64,000 bases of DNA, taken from NCBI GenBank assembly GCA_949294395.1, contig CASFGU010000060.1, forward strand, positions 1 through 64,000. Direction: 5' to 3'. The stretch is from an uncultured bacterium (lineage in GTDB: Bacteria; Cyanobacteriota; Vampirovibrionia; Gastranaerophilales; Gastranaerophilaceae). The notes beneath the pieces are model-generated. The model searched no databases. It had not been told where the DNA came from and saw only the letters and a program-made list of their open reading frames with translations. The position numbers and the translations under genes were made by a program. Within the stretch, counting starts at the first letter, position 1. Every line of letters begins with the position of its first letter. Shown piece by piece: positions 9,236 to 55,937 of the stretch.

Positions 9236-9925
9236 ATGGATATGAAAAAGATTTTATGTACAGCTATGGTTGCACAAATGTTTTTAATTGCGCCGGCTTT
9301 TGCATTCAGTTTCAAGAAGGACAAAACCATAGTAGTGCCGGAGAATTTCCCTGAGAAATACAATGCTGAATACATAAAGAGGATTACACCGGAATACAAA
9401 TCGGTCGGGGATGATTTTATATTTTACGTGGCGCTTGATATGCTGAAAGGTACAAACGGCGAGTTTTCCCGTAAGGCAATTCTCGGAAATAATCTCTCTC
9501 AAAGACCTGTAAAAATTGAATTCAGAGATTTAGGAGCAATAAATCCGGAATACAAAAGCTTTGATGCACTGGGATGGAAGCGGGGAAAACAGCTTTATAT
9601 TTATATAAATCCGCGCCATAAAGATGCTCCTCCGGGGGCAATAGCTGCATTACTTTCACACGAGGCGCTTCATCAGGATGAGTATAATTCTCTTGCGGAA
9701 GAAACTTACGCATGGACAATGGAGGCTTCTGTGTGGTGTGAAATTTTAAATGTCTATCCGGAAAGTGCGGACGAAAACCTTCACCCGCTTGTGACAAGAG
9801 AGAATACGCTGAAAAAACTCTTTGAAAAAGGCAATTATTCAAATAAATACATAAGAAAAACCGTTCATGCAAATGAGGGTTACAAAAATCTTCCTGCGAC
9901 CTCTCCGGGGTTTGAGGATTTGTAG
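9236..9925 (+). CDS. Exported putative zinc metallopeptidase (HEALH motif)
   Basis: GAGGAG precedes the ATG by 10 bases. A signal peptide ending APAFAFS is followed by a 200-residue domain containing ALLSHEALHQDEYNSLAEE. HEALH fits the HExxH zinc site, and the downstream Glu of LAEETYAW could be the third ligand as in gluzincins. The upstream segment YIYINPRHKDAPPG suggests the substrate-edge strand before the active-site helix. I cannot place it in a named family. Expected location is periplasm or cell surface. Confidence 0.65.
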   Translation: MDMKKILCTAMVAQMFLIAPAFAFSFKKDKTIVVPENFPEKYNAEYIKRITPEYKSVGDDFIFYVALDMLKGTNGEFSRKAILGNNLSQRPVKIEFRDLGAINPEYKSFDALGWKRGKQLYIYINPRHKDAPPGAIAALLSHEALHQDEYNSLAEETYAWTMEASVWCEILNVYPESADENLHPLVTRENTLKKLFEKGNYSNKYIRKTVHANEGYKNLPATSPGFEDL

Positions 9926-10044: not shown

Positions 10045-10221
10045 AATCATAGAAGGAAATGTAAAATTTCACCCTAACGGAAAGAACAGCCGGTGTTAAG
10101 CGAAACTTTTTCAAAAGCAGGTACTGTCTGAGCGCAGCGAGTTCACCTGCTTCGGGTTGAGCTTTTACAGCCGGCTAGTGATTGTAGTTCGGGATGAAAT
10201 TTTACATTTCCTTCTATGATT
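10045..10221 (+). ncRNA. Unidentified structured element, copy A
   Basis: Perfect 27-base inverted arms (10045-10071 and 10195-10221), extended by CCC/GGG, enclose a core of about 115 nt. Inside, AGCCGG (10088-10093) pairs with CCGGCT (10171-10176). AAGC-GA-AAC (10098-10106) pairs with GTT-GA-GCTT (10156-10164), leaving tandem G.A mismatches. AGCAGGT (10116-10122) pairs with ACCTGCT (10145-10151). The same core occurs at 54174-54356, but there the closing arms are unrelated in sequence and still self-complementary. A structured RNA or a single-stranded DNA element is likely. I do not recognise the family. Confidence 0.65.
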
Positions 10222-10255: not shown

Positions 10256-10341
10256 CTAACTCTTTAAACTTTTATAAATAAATACACAGGTTACTTCGAA
10301 AGTATATTGATTATGAAAAATCCTTGGTGTTAAATAATCGT

Positions 10342-11574
10342 ATGAAGAGAAAAGAGCTATATATTTTTATTGCCGCCGTACTGGTTCTTGTGGGTTTGAA
10401 TCTGCTCGTAATGCACTCAAACAACCCTCTGTATTCCGAAAACGATGAGATGGTCAATAAAGAATATGTATCTTCTCAAAAGCTCTTTGATGAAGTCTGG
10501 TCGGAGGTCAAAACAAATTATTATGACGCTTCAATGAACCACCAGTCATGGGGTAGGTGGAAAGAGCATTACCACGGTAAAATTAAAACCGATGATGATG
10601 TGAAAGTCGCAGTGGATACAATGCTTGCAAGTCTTGATGACCCTTATTCAAGATATATGAATAAATCGGAATATTCAGACCAGAATACCTCTATAAATTC
10701 TAAGATAACCGGAATAGGGGTAAATATCTCGACGATTTCCGGCAAAACTCATATAATTAATGTTATGGAAGGCACGCCCGCACAGTTTTCAAATCTTCAG
10801 GCAGGCGATATAATTCTGAACATTGACGGAAAAGACATAAACGGTCTGTCGCTTGCCGAGGTGGCAAGCCTTGTCAGAGGCCCTGAAAATACTACTGTTG
10901 AACTTACTATTTTGAGAAATAAAGACAAATTTGTTAAAAAAGTTGTCCGGAAAGAAATAAAAATTAAAACAGTTAAGAGTTCCGTAGACAAAAATATAGG
11001 CTATATACAGATTTTGAGCTTTATCGGCTCAACAACGCCGAATGAGTTTCTTGAAGCTCTTGAAAAGACTAAAAATACAGACGGGCTTATTCTTGATTTG
11101 CGCGGAAACACCGGCGGACTTTTGCCGAACGCAATCTTTATAGCGAACCTTTTTATCTCAAAAGGAAACCTTGTAAGCATAGTCGGCAGAAACGGCTACC
11201 GATATAATATTGAGGCTCAGGAAACTGATTTCGGAATAGAAAAACCCGTAATAGTTCTTGTAGACGGCGCATCTGCCTCTGCCAGCGAAATTTTGTCCGG
11301 AGCACTCAAGGATTATAAAAAGGCAAAACTCCTCGGCACAAAAACTTTCGGCAAAGGTATGGTGCAGAAGATTATTCCGCTGCCAAACGAAACAGGGCTT
11401 AATCTTACTGTAGCCAAATATTTAACCCCGTCAGGCGCTGATATTAATAAAAAAGGTATAAGCCCTGATATAGAAGTTAAATTTACCCCGAACGACTTGA
11501 AAAATCATAACGATGTTCAGCTTAAAACCGCCAAGCTGCTTCTTTCTAAAATGCTAAGCCAGAATGTTAATTAA
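10342..11574 (+). CDS. ctpA: S41 family C-terminal processing peptidase
   Basis: A membrane anchor (residues 6-24) is followed by a PDZ domain (IGVNISTISGK..GDIILNIDGKDI) and the S41 protease core. The catalytic Ser lies in GASASASEILSG near residue 315 and the catalytic Lys in KTFGKGMVQ. These enzymes trim C-termini of periplasmic proteins, including cell-wall enzymes and, in cyanobacteria, photosystem D1. The ATG at 10342 is preferred. It has no ribosome site, and TTGATT (10307) and TAAATA (10331-10336) form a promoter that would give a leaderless message. The 410-residue length is normal. Confidence 0.9.
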   Translation: MKRKELYIFIAAVLVLVGLNLLVMHSNNPLYSENDEMVNKEYVSSQKLFDEVWSEVKTNYYDASMNHQSWGRWKEHYHGKIKTDDDVKVAVDTMLASLDDPYSRYMNKSEYSDQNTSINSKITGIGVNISTISGKTHIINVMEGTPAQFSNLQAGDIILNIDGKDINGLSLAEVASLVRGPENTTVELTILRNKDKFVKKVVRKEIKIKTVKSSVDKNIGYIQILSFIGSTTPNEFLEALEKTKNTDGLILDLRGNTGGLLPNAIFIANLFISKGNLVSIVGRNGYRYNIEAQETDFGIEKPVIVLVDGASASASEILSGALKDYKKAKLLGTKTFGKGMVQKIIPLPNETGLNLTVAKYLTPSGADINKKGISPDIEVKFTPNDLKNHNDVQLKTAKLLLSKMLSQNVN

Positions 11575-52672: not shown

Positions 52673-52924
52673 CTATTCTGAAAAATTCATCATAGCATCT
52701 GCTTCTTTCATTGCTAATTCTAACAATCTGTAAGTCATATATGCTCCAAGAGCAACGGCTTTCGGATCGAGATCAGAATTATTTGCCGCCTCAATTATTG
52801 CCGTGTTAATTTCAGGATTTTCATCTTTAATATAGTGTATCATTTTTTTGCGCCACGCGGGCATATCCTGAAAAACTTCTGAAAATGTTGATGCCGCTAT
52901 TTCTTCTGATATTATTGGTAACAT
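52673..52924 (-). CDS. Small hypothetical protein upstream of pilT
   Basis: The 83-residue helical protein (NSDLDPKAVALGAYMTYRLLELAMKEADAMM) stops 20 bases before pilT and probably shares its transcript. No domain recognised. It could serve the pilus, but this is inferred only from position. Confidence 0.6.
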   Translation of the reverse strand: MLPIISEEIAASTFSEVFQDMPAWRKKMIHYIKDENPEINTAIIEAANNSDLDPKAVALGAYMTYRLLELAMKEADAMMNFSE

Positions 52925-53019
52925 TACCGTCCTCTTGTTTTTGTCATAAGTTTCCCGTTATAAAAGGGTATATTTATTATTTTCTACAATTCCGGAAAAA
53001 AATAATCATTTGTTTGAAG

Positions 53020-53025
53020 TATAAT
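53020..53025 (+). promoter_or_regulatory. -10 element, leaderless recF
   Basis: TATAAT at 53020-53025 is six bases before the recF ATG at 53032. No ribosome site fits. Confidence 0.6.
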
Positions 53026-53031
53026 TTAAGA

Positions 53032-54135
53032 ATGAAGCTGATTAATGTTAAACTTACGGATTACAGAAACTGCCGGAACATAGAGCTGGATTTATCCGGC
53101 GGTAAAATACTTATTATCGGCAAAAACGCACAGGGAAAGACTAATATTCTTGAGAGTATTTATTTTCTTTCAACCCTGAAAAGTCCGCGCACATCTAATA
53201 ATATTGAACTTATCAATTTTGGCTCTGAAAGAACTGAAATTGATGCGGATATTATAAAAGCGGATACTGAAATAAGTCTCGGCTACACTTATACAAAAGA
53301 CAAAGCCCGTGAACTAAAGATTAACGGGGTGAAAAGCCGCCCGAAAGATTTTAAATCCGTATTAAAAACAGTTCTTTTTTCGACTTCAGACCTGCTCTTA
53401 CTCCGCGGGAACCCGTCAGACAGACGCGACTGGCTGGATAGAGCAATTTCCCAGGTTTATCCTGCTTATGACGACAGGCTTTCGAAGTACGACAAAATCC
53501 GTATTCAGAAAAATAATTTCTTAAAAGATTTAGCAAAAGGAAATACTCTTAATGAAACTTTGCTGGAAGTTTACAATGAACAGCTTGTCATAACCGGAAG
53601 CAACATAATTTTTCTGCGCAAGAAATTCCTCAAAGAGATAGAAAGAATTGCAAAGGAGAAACACAGGATTATAAGTGAGACTGAGGATTTAAAAATAGAA
53701 TATGAATGTTCTTTTTTGAACCGAGAGGACGAACTTGAACAAATTGTAGAAAAATTTAAGCAATCGCTTGAAGAAAGGCGGATTGAGGAAATAAGGCGCG
53801 CGCAATCTTGTGTCGGGCCGCACAGGGACGATATAATTTTTTATATAAACGGAAACGAGGCAACGAAATTTGCTTCACAGGGGCAGCAAAGGACAATTGT
53901 CCTCGCGCTTAAGCTATCCGAACTTGATATTATCACAGACAAAACTGGAGATGAACCGGTTCTGCTTCTTGATGACGTTCTTGCAGAACTCGACGACATA
54001 AGGCAGAATTATCTTTTAAAATCAATAAACGACAGAACGCAGACGATTATAACCTCGGTTGATACGGTTTTATTTGAGGATGAATTTTTAAAAGACGTTA
54101 AAATCTACAAAATCGAAAACGGGGCTATTAAATAA
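53032..54135 (+). CDS. recF: DNA repair protein RecF
   Basis: RecF loads RecA at single-strand gaps. The 367-residue protein starts MKLINVKLTDYRN and has GKNAQGKT (Walker A, residues 30-37). QGQQRTIVLALKLSEL is the ABC signature and LLLDDVLAELDD is Walker B. A longer frame extends upstream to 52885 but lacks a site, and family members begin here. In many bacteria recF lies beside dnaA and dnaN; here it is isolated. Confidence 0.95.
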   Translation: MKLINVKLTDYRNCRNIELDLSGGKILIIGKNAQGKTNILESIYFLSTLKSPRTSNNIELINFGSERTEIDADIIKADTEISLGYTYTKDKARELKINGVKSRPKDFKSVLKTVLFSTSDLLLLRGNPSDRRDWLDRAISQVYPAYDDRLSKYDKIRIQKNNFLKDLAKGNTLNETLLEVYNEQLVITGSNIIFLRKKFLKEIERIAKEKHRIISETEDLKIEYECSFLNREDELEQIVEKFKQSLEERRIEEIRRAQSCVGPHRDDIIFYINGNEATKFASQGQQRTIVLALKLSELDIITDKTGDEPVLLLDDVLAELDDIRQNYLLKSINDRTQTIITSVDTVLFEDEFLKDVKIYKIENGAIK

Positions 54136-54173: not shown

Positions 54174-54356
54174 AACTAGCGGAGATGTATAATATTTTAA
54201 CCTAACGGAAAGCTCAGCCGGTGTTAAGCGAAACATCTTCAATAGCAGGTGCTGTCTGAGGAACGTATGTGACGAGTTCACCTGCTTTGTGTTGAGCTTA
54301 TTACAACCGGCTAGAGATTGTAGTTCGTGTTTAAATATTATACATCTCCGCTAGTT
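54174..54356 (+). ncRNA. Unidentified structured element, copy B
   Basis: Perfect 24-base arms (54174-54197 and 54333-54356) close a core homologous to 10072-10194. AGCCGG (54216-54221) pairs with CCGGCT (54307-54312) and AGCAGGT (54244-54250) with ACCTGCT (54280-54286). AAGCGAAAC and GTTGAGCTT again pair with tandem G.A mismatches. Conserved blocks include CCTAACGGAAAG, CGGTGTTAAGCGAAAC, CTGTCTGAG and GATTGTAGTTCG. The arms have no similarity to copy A. An extra gtcaca/tgtgac pair lies outside (54143 and 54367). It sits between recF and lysS. Confidence 0.65.
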
Positions 54357-54437: not shown

Positions 54438-55937
54438 ATGACACAACAAACCGTTCACGAGCCGAATTCGGCTATAGACCAGATAAGACAGACAAGAATC
54501 CAAAAACTTGCAGATCTTGCTGATAAAGGCGTTAATCCGTACCCTTACGTGTTCGACAAAAACGCTGACGCTGCTGATTTGCAGGAAAAATACAAAGACC
54601 TTCCGGCAGGTGAAGAAACTGAGGATGTCTATTCTGTTGCAGGCCGCGTTATGGCGATAAGAAACACCGGGATGTTTATCGATTTGATGGACGCTTCCGG
54701 CAAAATTCAGATTTTTTCCCATAAAGAAAATCTCACAGAAGATCAGATGAAAATTCTTAAACTTATTGATATAGGTGATATTGCAGGCTTCACCGGCACA
54801 ATCAGAAGAACTCCGCGCGGAGAACTTTCCATAAAATCAACATCATTGAAGCTTTTATCAAAATCGCTTCTTCCGCTTCCGGAAAAATTCCACGGGCTTA
54901 CTGACGTTGAAACCCGCTACCGCCAGCGCTATGTTGATATGATTGTGAATGAAGATGTCAGAAAAACTTTCAGAACAAGAAGTTTGATTATTCAGAAAAT
55001 CAGAGAATACCTGACAAAACAGGGATTTCTGGAAGTTGAAACACCGATGCTTCACCCGCAGGCAGGCGGCGCTAACGCAAGACCTTTTATTACTCACCAT
55101 AACACTCTTGATATGGACATGTTCCTGAGAATTGCGCCGGAACTTTACCTGAAAAGACTTATGGTAGGCGGCTTGAGCGAAAAGATTTTTGAAATTAACA
55201 GAAGCTTCAGAAACGAAGGTATCGACATTCGCCACAACCCTGAGTTCACAATGATGGAACTTTATCAGGCTTACGTTGATTATAACGAAATGATGGTTTT
55301 GACAGAAAATCTTGTGTCTACTGTAGCACAGGAAGTTCTCGGTACAATGAAGATTACCTACGGAGATAACGAAATAGATTTAACTCCGCCGTGGGATAGA
55401 AAAACCATGCTCGGTGCTATAAAAGAATATACAAATGTTGATTTTTCAAGCTGCTACACGCTTGACGATGCAAAATCGAAAGCAAAGGCGCTTGGCATAA
55501 ATCCTGAAGAATGCGACAACTGGGGGCAGGTAATTGACCTGATTTTTGAAGAAAAAGTTGAACCGCACTTAATTCAGCCTGTCCATATTATTGATTATCC
55601 GCGTGATATATCTCCGCTTGCGAAAGTTCACAGAGATAATGAAAGACTTACAGAGCGTTTTGAAACACGTGTTAACGGCTGGGAAATTGCAAATGCCTTC
55701 TCTGAATTAACTGATCCGATTGACCAGAGAATGAGATTTGAAGCCCAGATGCAGGCAAAAGTTAACGGGGATGATGAAGCTATGCCTATTGATGAAGATT
55801 ATATCTGCGCACTGGAACACGGCGCGCCTCCTATGGGCGGGCTAGGCGTTGGTATTGACCGTCTGGTAATGCTTCTGACAAATTCTCCGTCAATACGTGA
55901 TGTCATTGCCTTTCCTACTTTGAAAAAGAAGAACTAA
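54438..55937 (+). CDS. lysS: Lysyl-tRNA synthetase (class II)
   Basis: LysS charges tRNA-Lys. The 499-residue protein has the OB fold (VYSVAGRVMAIRNTGM), motif 2 (FRNEGIDIRHNPEFTMME) and motif 3 (GLGVGIDRLVMLLT). Length and start (AAGGAAG before ATG) are normal. Confidence 0.97.
   Translation: MTQQTVHEPNSAIDQIRQTRIQKLADLADKGVNPYPYVFDKNADAADLQEKYKDLPAGEETEDVYSVAGRVMAIRNTGMFIDLMDASGKIQIFSHKENLTEDQMKILKLIDIGDIAGFTGTIRRTPRGELSIKSTSLKLLSKSLLPLPEKFHGLTDVETRYRQRYVDMIVNEDVRKTFRTRSLIIQKIREYLTKQGFLEVETPMLHPQAGGANARPFITHHNTLDMDMFLRIAPELYLKRLMVGGLSEKIFEINRSFRNEGIDIRHNPEFTMMELYQAYVDYNEMMVLTENLVSTVAQEVLGTMKITYGDNEIDLTPPWDRKTMLGAIKEYTNVDFSSCYTLDDAKSKAKALGINPEECDNWGQVIDLIFEEKVEPHLIQPVHIIDYPRDISPLAKVHRDNERLTERFETRVNGWEIANAFSELTDPIDQRMRFEAQMQAKVNGDDEAMPIDEDYICALEHGAPPMGGLGVGIDRLVMLLTNSPSIRDVIAFPTLKKKN

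Follow-up and report, generated by a model that had tools for sequence, protein, structure and literature searches.

Dispersed hairpin elements with palindromic, locus-specific outer arms in Gastranaerophilaceae genomes

We find that an imperfect hairpin of ~115 nucleotides is repeated at intergenic sites throughout certain genomes of the Gastranaerophilaceae, and that its closing arms carry outer portions that form a different palindrome at each locus. These outer hairpin ends appear to derive from the sequence at the site itself, with polymerase template switching as the most likely means. In our judgment, the element is probably a mobile DNA hairpin of the REP/REPIN/MITE-like kind, whose arms are extended and homogenized, and whose core is flipped, by template switching during replication. 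Any function served for the host is probably incidental.

This repeat family is new to an uncultured lineage of gut bacteria, and it also represents a natural experiment on the origin and persistence of perfect palindromes, in which one core carries different perfect arms at dozens of loci and has flipped in place between sister species. With arms of 20-30 bp and a spacer of ~115 nt, the template-switch explanation of perfect hairpins becomes testable in bacteria. The same loci serve as a warning that covariation can stem from DNA mechanics and need not imply a functional RNA.

Structure and distribution of the element

Two copies reside in the window, which is the whole stretch of 64,000 nucleotides that was analyzed, taken from a 2.1-Mb draft genome (G000). 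The feature at 10045-10221 is real and comprises a 114-nt hairpin core and a closing stem of 27 bp, whose arms are fully complementary as the initial annotation had stated. Comparison of the cores likewise bore out its claim that long blocks are shared with 54174-54356, where a core of 122 nt is enclosed by perfect 24-bp arms. The features of these two loci are as follows, with the neighboring genes listed for context only.

10045..10071, + strand: copy 1, left arm of the closing stem, 27 nt, perfect complement of 10195-10221
10076..10189, + strand: copy 1, conserved core of the hairpin, 114 nt, AAC...GTT, with BLAST and covariance-model matches and covarying stems
10195..10221, + strand: copy 1, right arm of the closing stem, 27 nt, fully complementary to 10045-10071
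54174..54197, + strand: copy 2, left arm of the closing stem, 24 nt
54204..54325, + strand: copy 2, conserved core of the hairpin, 122 nt; the sister-species site holds an opposite-orientation core of another lineage
54333..54356, + strand: copy 2, right arm of the closing stem, 24 nt
9236..9925, + strand: upstream neighbor of copy 1, a gene of 229 aa without a Pfam match
10324..11574, + strand: downstream neighbor of copy 1, a gene for an S41 (CtpA/CtpB-like) peptidase
52885..54135, + strand: upstream neighbor of copy 2, a gene for an SMC/RecF/RecN-type ATPase
54438..55937, + strand: downstream neighbor of copy 2, a gene for a LysS-like class II tRNA synthetase that has an OB fold

Both copies are predicted to fold with exceptional stability, as evident by values of -88.4 kcal/mol for copy 1 (z -10.1; shuffled mean -46.7) and -83.4 kcal/mol for copy 2 (z -9.9), and in neither case was any shuffled sequence as good. 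Core length ranges from 98 to 153 nt among copies, the stems covary, and both paired and unpaired core positions are strongly conserved. The tandem G.A mismatches pointed out in the initial annotation are present in the window's genus, where GCGAAAC faces GTTGAGC, but in most copies from other genera the same core position is normally paired (GTTTCAC / GTGAAAC). Some cores carry a longer apical insert of 30-45 nt (L063/L067, L141, L260, L261), and the orthologues L063 and L067 retain the same one.

BLAST searches recovered ~20 copies of the core from the window's genome. A covariance model, which the initial annotation had proposed to build from two copies, was built here from 18. It identified 23 copies in G000, 17 in the genome of a sister species (G008), 12 diverged copies in G011 and one or two each in G002, G006 and G007, and seven further congeners yielded no match. 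Among sampled Gastranaerophilaceae, 50 of 146 genomes and 22 of 41 genera yielded matches in a patchy pattern, and a draw across the order gave matches in 42 of 117 genomes, every one of which is listed under this family. Exact core patterns in the GTDB collection were confined to metagenome-assembled genomes named Candidatus Gastranaerophilales (an order of Melainabacteria). All of these comparisons were made on draft genomes, most of them metagenome-assembled.

The initial annotation had held a match to a known Rfam family, or a lack of further copies, to count against its reading. The copies proved numerous, and no Rfam 15 family matches the window at its gathering score. The only permissive match, to the plant miRNA precursor MIR6457, scores 25.5 bits versus a cut-off of 140 and was dismissed. 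We found no description of such a repeat from this lineage in the open-access literature, and nothing similar in plasmid and annotated phage collections. However, one IMG/VR phage contig, which encodes a terminase large subunit and a major head protein, has a copy (L267:1409-1547) adjacent to its terminase gene, demonstrating that phages can carry the element. This contig is a possible vehicle between hosts.

Other repeats were observed in the course of these searches. In other genera (L158, L160, L152, L141, L267 and others), a second class of palindromes lies 3′ of the core, with short loops such as TTGTCGGTACAA or TTTGCCACCAAA and perfect arms that vary among copies, and this class is possibly a second self-writing family of palindromes. 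At L215 (G006), in the core loops of L141 and L261, and at L152, there are repeats of the type ATTCTGAAACAAGTTCAGAATGACG / GATCCCGGGTCAAGCCCGGGATGACG; they resemble the CGTC-tagged REP super-family (PMC3733652), and some copies are nested within the apical loop of the core element. The sequence GGAAAAAAGAAAC...GAACCAAAGAAAAGAAAAATCGGCAAAAGAA, found in the upstream flank of L057 (query positions 394-490), is another highly repeated intergenic sequence, with many occurrences in every searched genome of the genus.

Arms, empty alleles and core orientation

The perfect run of arm pairing within a copy has a median of 18.5 bp and a maximum of 35, and is at least 20 bp in 19 of 40 copies. When arms of different copies are paired as a control, the median perfect run is 5 and the 99th percentile is 13. 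The initial annotation described the closing arms of the two window copies as unrelated but each perfect. The perfection of the arms and the unrelatedness of their outer part were upheld, but the inner ~12-16 nt (about TATAAAATTTnACC) is AT-rich, common to copies and moves with the element. For the left arm of copy 1, comparison of copies places the division between an outer ~13 nt that is locus-specific and an inner ~13 nt that belongs to the element.

Outer arms are unrelated among different loci and are nonetheless palindromic at each, even where the cores are 92-97% identical (e.g. L002/L070 and L065/L057). Because the outer arms are locus-specific in such closely related copies, we infer that these palindromes were formed at the locus. 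Arms of orthologous copies also change in concert between species in both halves. For L009/L031, the core is 100% identical and each difference between the arms occurs in both of them.

The sister genome G008 is without the element at the sites of five G000 copies (L008, L015, L006, L018 and L001). At L008 and L015, the outer left arm is found in G008 as unremarkable, unduplicated DNA, and the right arm in G000 is its inverted copy, after which comes filler or, immediately, native sequence; the direct overlap is ~5-6 nt. In L006 the native arm is the right one and the direct overlap is 12 nt. An apparent TAAAA adjoins the site in all three cases. The arms of L018 are missing from the empty allele, and at L001, which is window copy 1, the surrounding ~75 nt also differ in G008. 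The overlaps at these three sites (about 5, 6 and 12 nt) are not constant in length, and outgroup intergenic DNA is too diverged to distinguish insertion from loss by slippage. The three clean, near-isogenic empty alleles could be deletions by slippage between short direct repeats. That the outer arms are formed at the locus stands independently of this polarity. Turnover is also evident at one further site, which is occupied by the element in G000, G008 and G007, by a Rho-independent terminator in five congeners, and by unrelated repeats in G006, whose flanks are 97-100% identical to those of G007.

Comparison of flanks between G000 and G008 revealed opposite core orientation at five shared sites, where the flanks are 88-98% identical. 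We initially counted five in-place inversions, but this number was cut to three by asking whether the reversed core, when checked against all others, is still nearest to its orthologue. On this basis L017/L060 (94.8% core identity), L004/L065 (97.5%) and L014/L066 (88.7%) are classed as true flips, with the last of these appearing less strongly supported than the other two. The reversed cores of L012/L038 and of L005/L070, the site of window copy 2, are not each other's nearest, which is more readily explained if one core replaced another or if each species received its own insertion in that intergenic region. Orientation is unchanged at eight further shared sites, such that flips since the two species diverged amount to 3 of 11 vertically inherited loci. 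Orientation errors are possible but unlikely, because the arms (at most ~35 nt) are shorter than usual assembly k-mers.

The arrangement of copies differs among genera. In other genera, cores are often head to head, with 23 of 35 close neighbors in '- +' order, and have short closing stems with further hairpins downstream. Copies in the window's genus are single and have extended arms, and inverted doublets were not seen there.

A template-switch model and its alternatives

Template switching between short or imperfect inverted repeats is reported to homogenize arms, lengthen perfect stems and invert spacers (PMC8604942), and also to create and maintain perfect hairpins and stems (PMC8794818). 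Judging from the comparison of copies, the moving unit would be the ~115-nt imperfect hairpin together with its ~12-16 nt AT-rich inner arm. This unit presumably acts as DNA, with a single strand extruded and folded on itself as a hairpin. Once at a locus, the inner palindrome would seed polymerase template switching, wherein the nascent strand may fold back and pair in the hairpin. The nascent end could then copy the flank of one side onto the other, yielding a perfect locus-specific outer arm, before returning to the template. The same process would repair mismatches between the arms, and a switch within the first arm would invert the core in place.

Several outcomes of such a pathway are observed, namely dispersed cores with inner arms, palindromic and locus-specific outer arms, concerted arm change and in-place inversion, whereas the mechanism itself is proposed by extension from the documented cases. 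Among the five sites with reversed cores, two or more are not flips, which stands against this reading. Moreover, the spacer inversions documented previously involve a few bp (PMC8604942), compared with 115 bp in this element.

A dedicated transposase or recombinase that recognizes and inserts the folded single strand, through a reaction that opens or extends the hairpin end to produce an inverted flank duplication, is a credible but unlikely alternative. Strong conservation of both paired and unpaired core positions would fit with recognition by such an enzyme, as would the apparent TAAAA beside three sites, the copy on a phage contig, and the inverted doublets of other genera, which are arranged as in transposase-moved REPINs. 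However, our search for a mover among the Y1/RAYT, RT and IS110 families argues against it. No gene is common to most of 18 element loci. Y1 presence is unassociated with the element (19 of 50 carriers versus 30 of 96 non-carriers), and there is no core in 18 RAYT neighborhoods of carriers from other genera or at four Y1 loci of the window's genus, such that a RAYT/Y1 mover was rejected as neither associated nor linked. SINE-like spread by an RT was set aside given that the high-copy sister genomes G000 and G008 have none, and an IS110/Piv invertase was discounted in view of its absence from the window's genus. A search for half-elements flanking a transposase gave degenerate halves only. Furthermore, direct overlaps of 5 to 12 nt do not constitute a fixed duplication.

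RAYT-type Y1 transposases themselves are present in about a third of Gastranaerophilaceae genomes (loci L201, L202 and L204). The Y1 gene of G000 is truncated, and the Y1 protein of G006 appears to contain in-frame repeat sequence.

Somewhat less probable is a new type of single-stranded DNA hairpin transposon, for which each insertion would duplicate the flank in inverted form and thereby make a fresh perfect palindrome. Such an element would be moved by an enzyme acting in trans, and phages might carry it from cell to cell.

The extraordinary stability of the fold and its strong covariation are also features expected of a structured RNA, such as a regulatory RNA, a 3′-end stabilizer or a terminator, for which a long stem would be selected regardless of its sequence. 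Its genomic context is compatible with this role. All 40 copies in the genus are intergenic and most are downstream of stop codons, with neighboring genes convergent in 15 cases, tandem in 20 and divergent in only 5 (orthologues counted separately), and the site at which congeners have a Rho-independent terminator could be viewed likewise. Nevertheless, selection acting on one RNA strand should tolerate G-U over A-C, and the stems vary nearly always by Watson-Crick to Watson-Crick changes. Core stems in the genus include 18 G-T versus 18 A-C among 1278 cells, and arm mismatches include 26 G-T versus 21 A-C (1089 arm columns). Since there is no preference for G-U over A-C, pairing in this genus looks to be kept at the DNA level. 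In other genera, with a fixed T-G pair set aside, a modest G-T excess (about 55 versus 23 A-C) means that some RNA-level or single-strand selection is possible there. An additional argument for DNA, based on the many apical loops of the form C(GNA)G and C(GNNA)G, is suggestive but was dropped and given no weight because stem assignment is ambiguous in the window's genus.

Other observations also weigh against an RNA. Both orientations are found at one locus, copy 1 has no promoter-like or terminator-like signal, the element is patchy and missing in most close relatives, and orthologous cores are about as diverged as their flanks (94.0% versus 92.2% identity). We therefore consider a structured RNA to be quite unlikely. 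The Watson-Crick changes, the lack of a G-U excess and the occurrence of either orientation at one locus run counter to the new non-coding RNA class suggested in the initial annotation. Its idea of a guide-like hairpin with distant targets was likewise abandoned, as the outer arms match their own flank and are copies of adjacent DNA.

Two final proposals are very improbable. An inverton, with a promoter in the core and with arms that serve a site-specific invertase as recombination sites, would account for the in-place inversion between perfect inverted repeats in sister species, which is seen at three loci (two strongly supported), but copy 1 lacks a promoter-like site, flipping a promoter would be pointless for the 15 of 40 copies between convergent genes, and arm sequences differ at every locus, leaving no common site for one recombinase. 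Insertion into existing perfect palindromes such as terminators, with the arms as target halves, is similarly doubtful; the element replaces a terminator at one locus and adjoins one at L006, but the empty alleles of L008, L015 and L006 have a single arm and no palindrome, a terminator-like hairpin is close to only 4 of 26 copies, and the arms are AT-rich. Among the three options of the initial annotation, that of a mobile element making palindromes agrees best with the data, namely the numerous dispersed copies, their patchy distribution, the site-specific outer arms and the empty alleles. The targeting of existing palindromes is disfavored.

Comparison with known systems

REP sequences (Repetitive Extragenic Palindromes) have a unit of 20-40 bp with a GTAG/CGTC tag, and REPIN doublets are thought to be moved by RAYT proteins (PMC3116915, PMC3733652). 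The element is similar in that it is an intergenic, gene-less and imperfect palindrome present in many copies (23 in its own genome), and in other Gastranaerophilaceae genera it occurs mostly as inverted doublets. It differs by its core of ~115 nt versus a 20-40 bp repeat, by the lack of an invariant GTAG/CGTC tag in alignments of 18 and 143 copies, by the lack of RAYT association or linkage, and, in the window's genus, by single copies with long locus-specific arms. Because of these differences in size, tag and RAYT association, we do not classify it as a REPIN.

ERIC sequences are intergenic imperfect palindromes of ~126 nt with no known mover, and thus resemble the element in size, location and fold. 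MITEs are short mobile repeats that lack genes and are bounded by inverted repeats at their termini. The ends of both ERICs and MITEs are conserved within a family, whereas the outer ends of the element vary per locus; in a terminal-repeat comparison of the MITE type, the inner ~12-16 nt are partly conserved and the outer arms are not. The element may also depart from MITEs in other respects, as no constant target duplication was seen at three empty-allele sites, and no parent transposon was found among the genes at 18 loci or in the Y1, RT and IS110 families.

Known products of template switching (PMC8604942, PMC8794818) share arm homogenization, lengthening of perfect stems and spacer inversion with the element. 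Their described spacers are short, however, whereas here the spacer is a mobile core of 115 nt and the proposed process would recur at dozens of loci. Integron attC sites are likewise folded imperfect hairpins with conserved unpaired positions, but they have conserved ends (R boxes) with a variable middle and occur in cassette arrays. The initial annotation had proposed that a conserved center with variable palindromic ends makes this element the reverse of attC, and the copies compared here agree with that description: the middle is conserved, the ends are variable, and the copies are single and dispersed.
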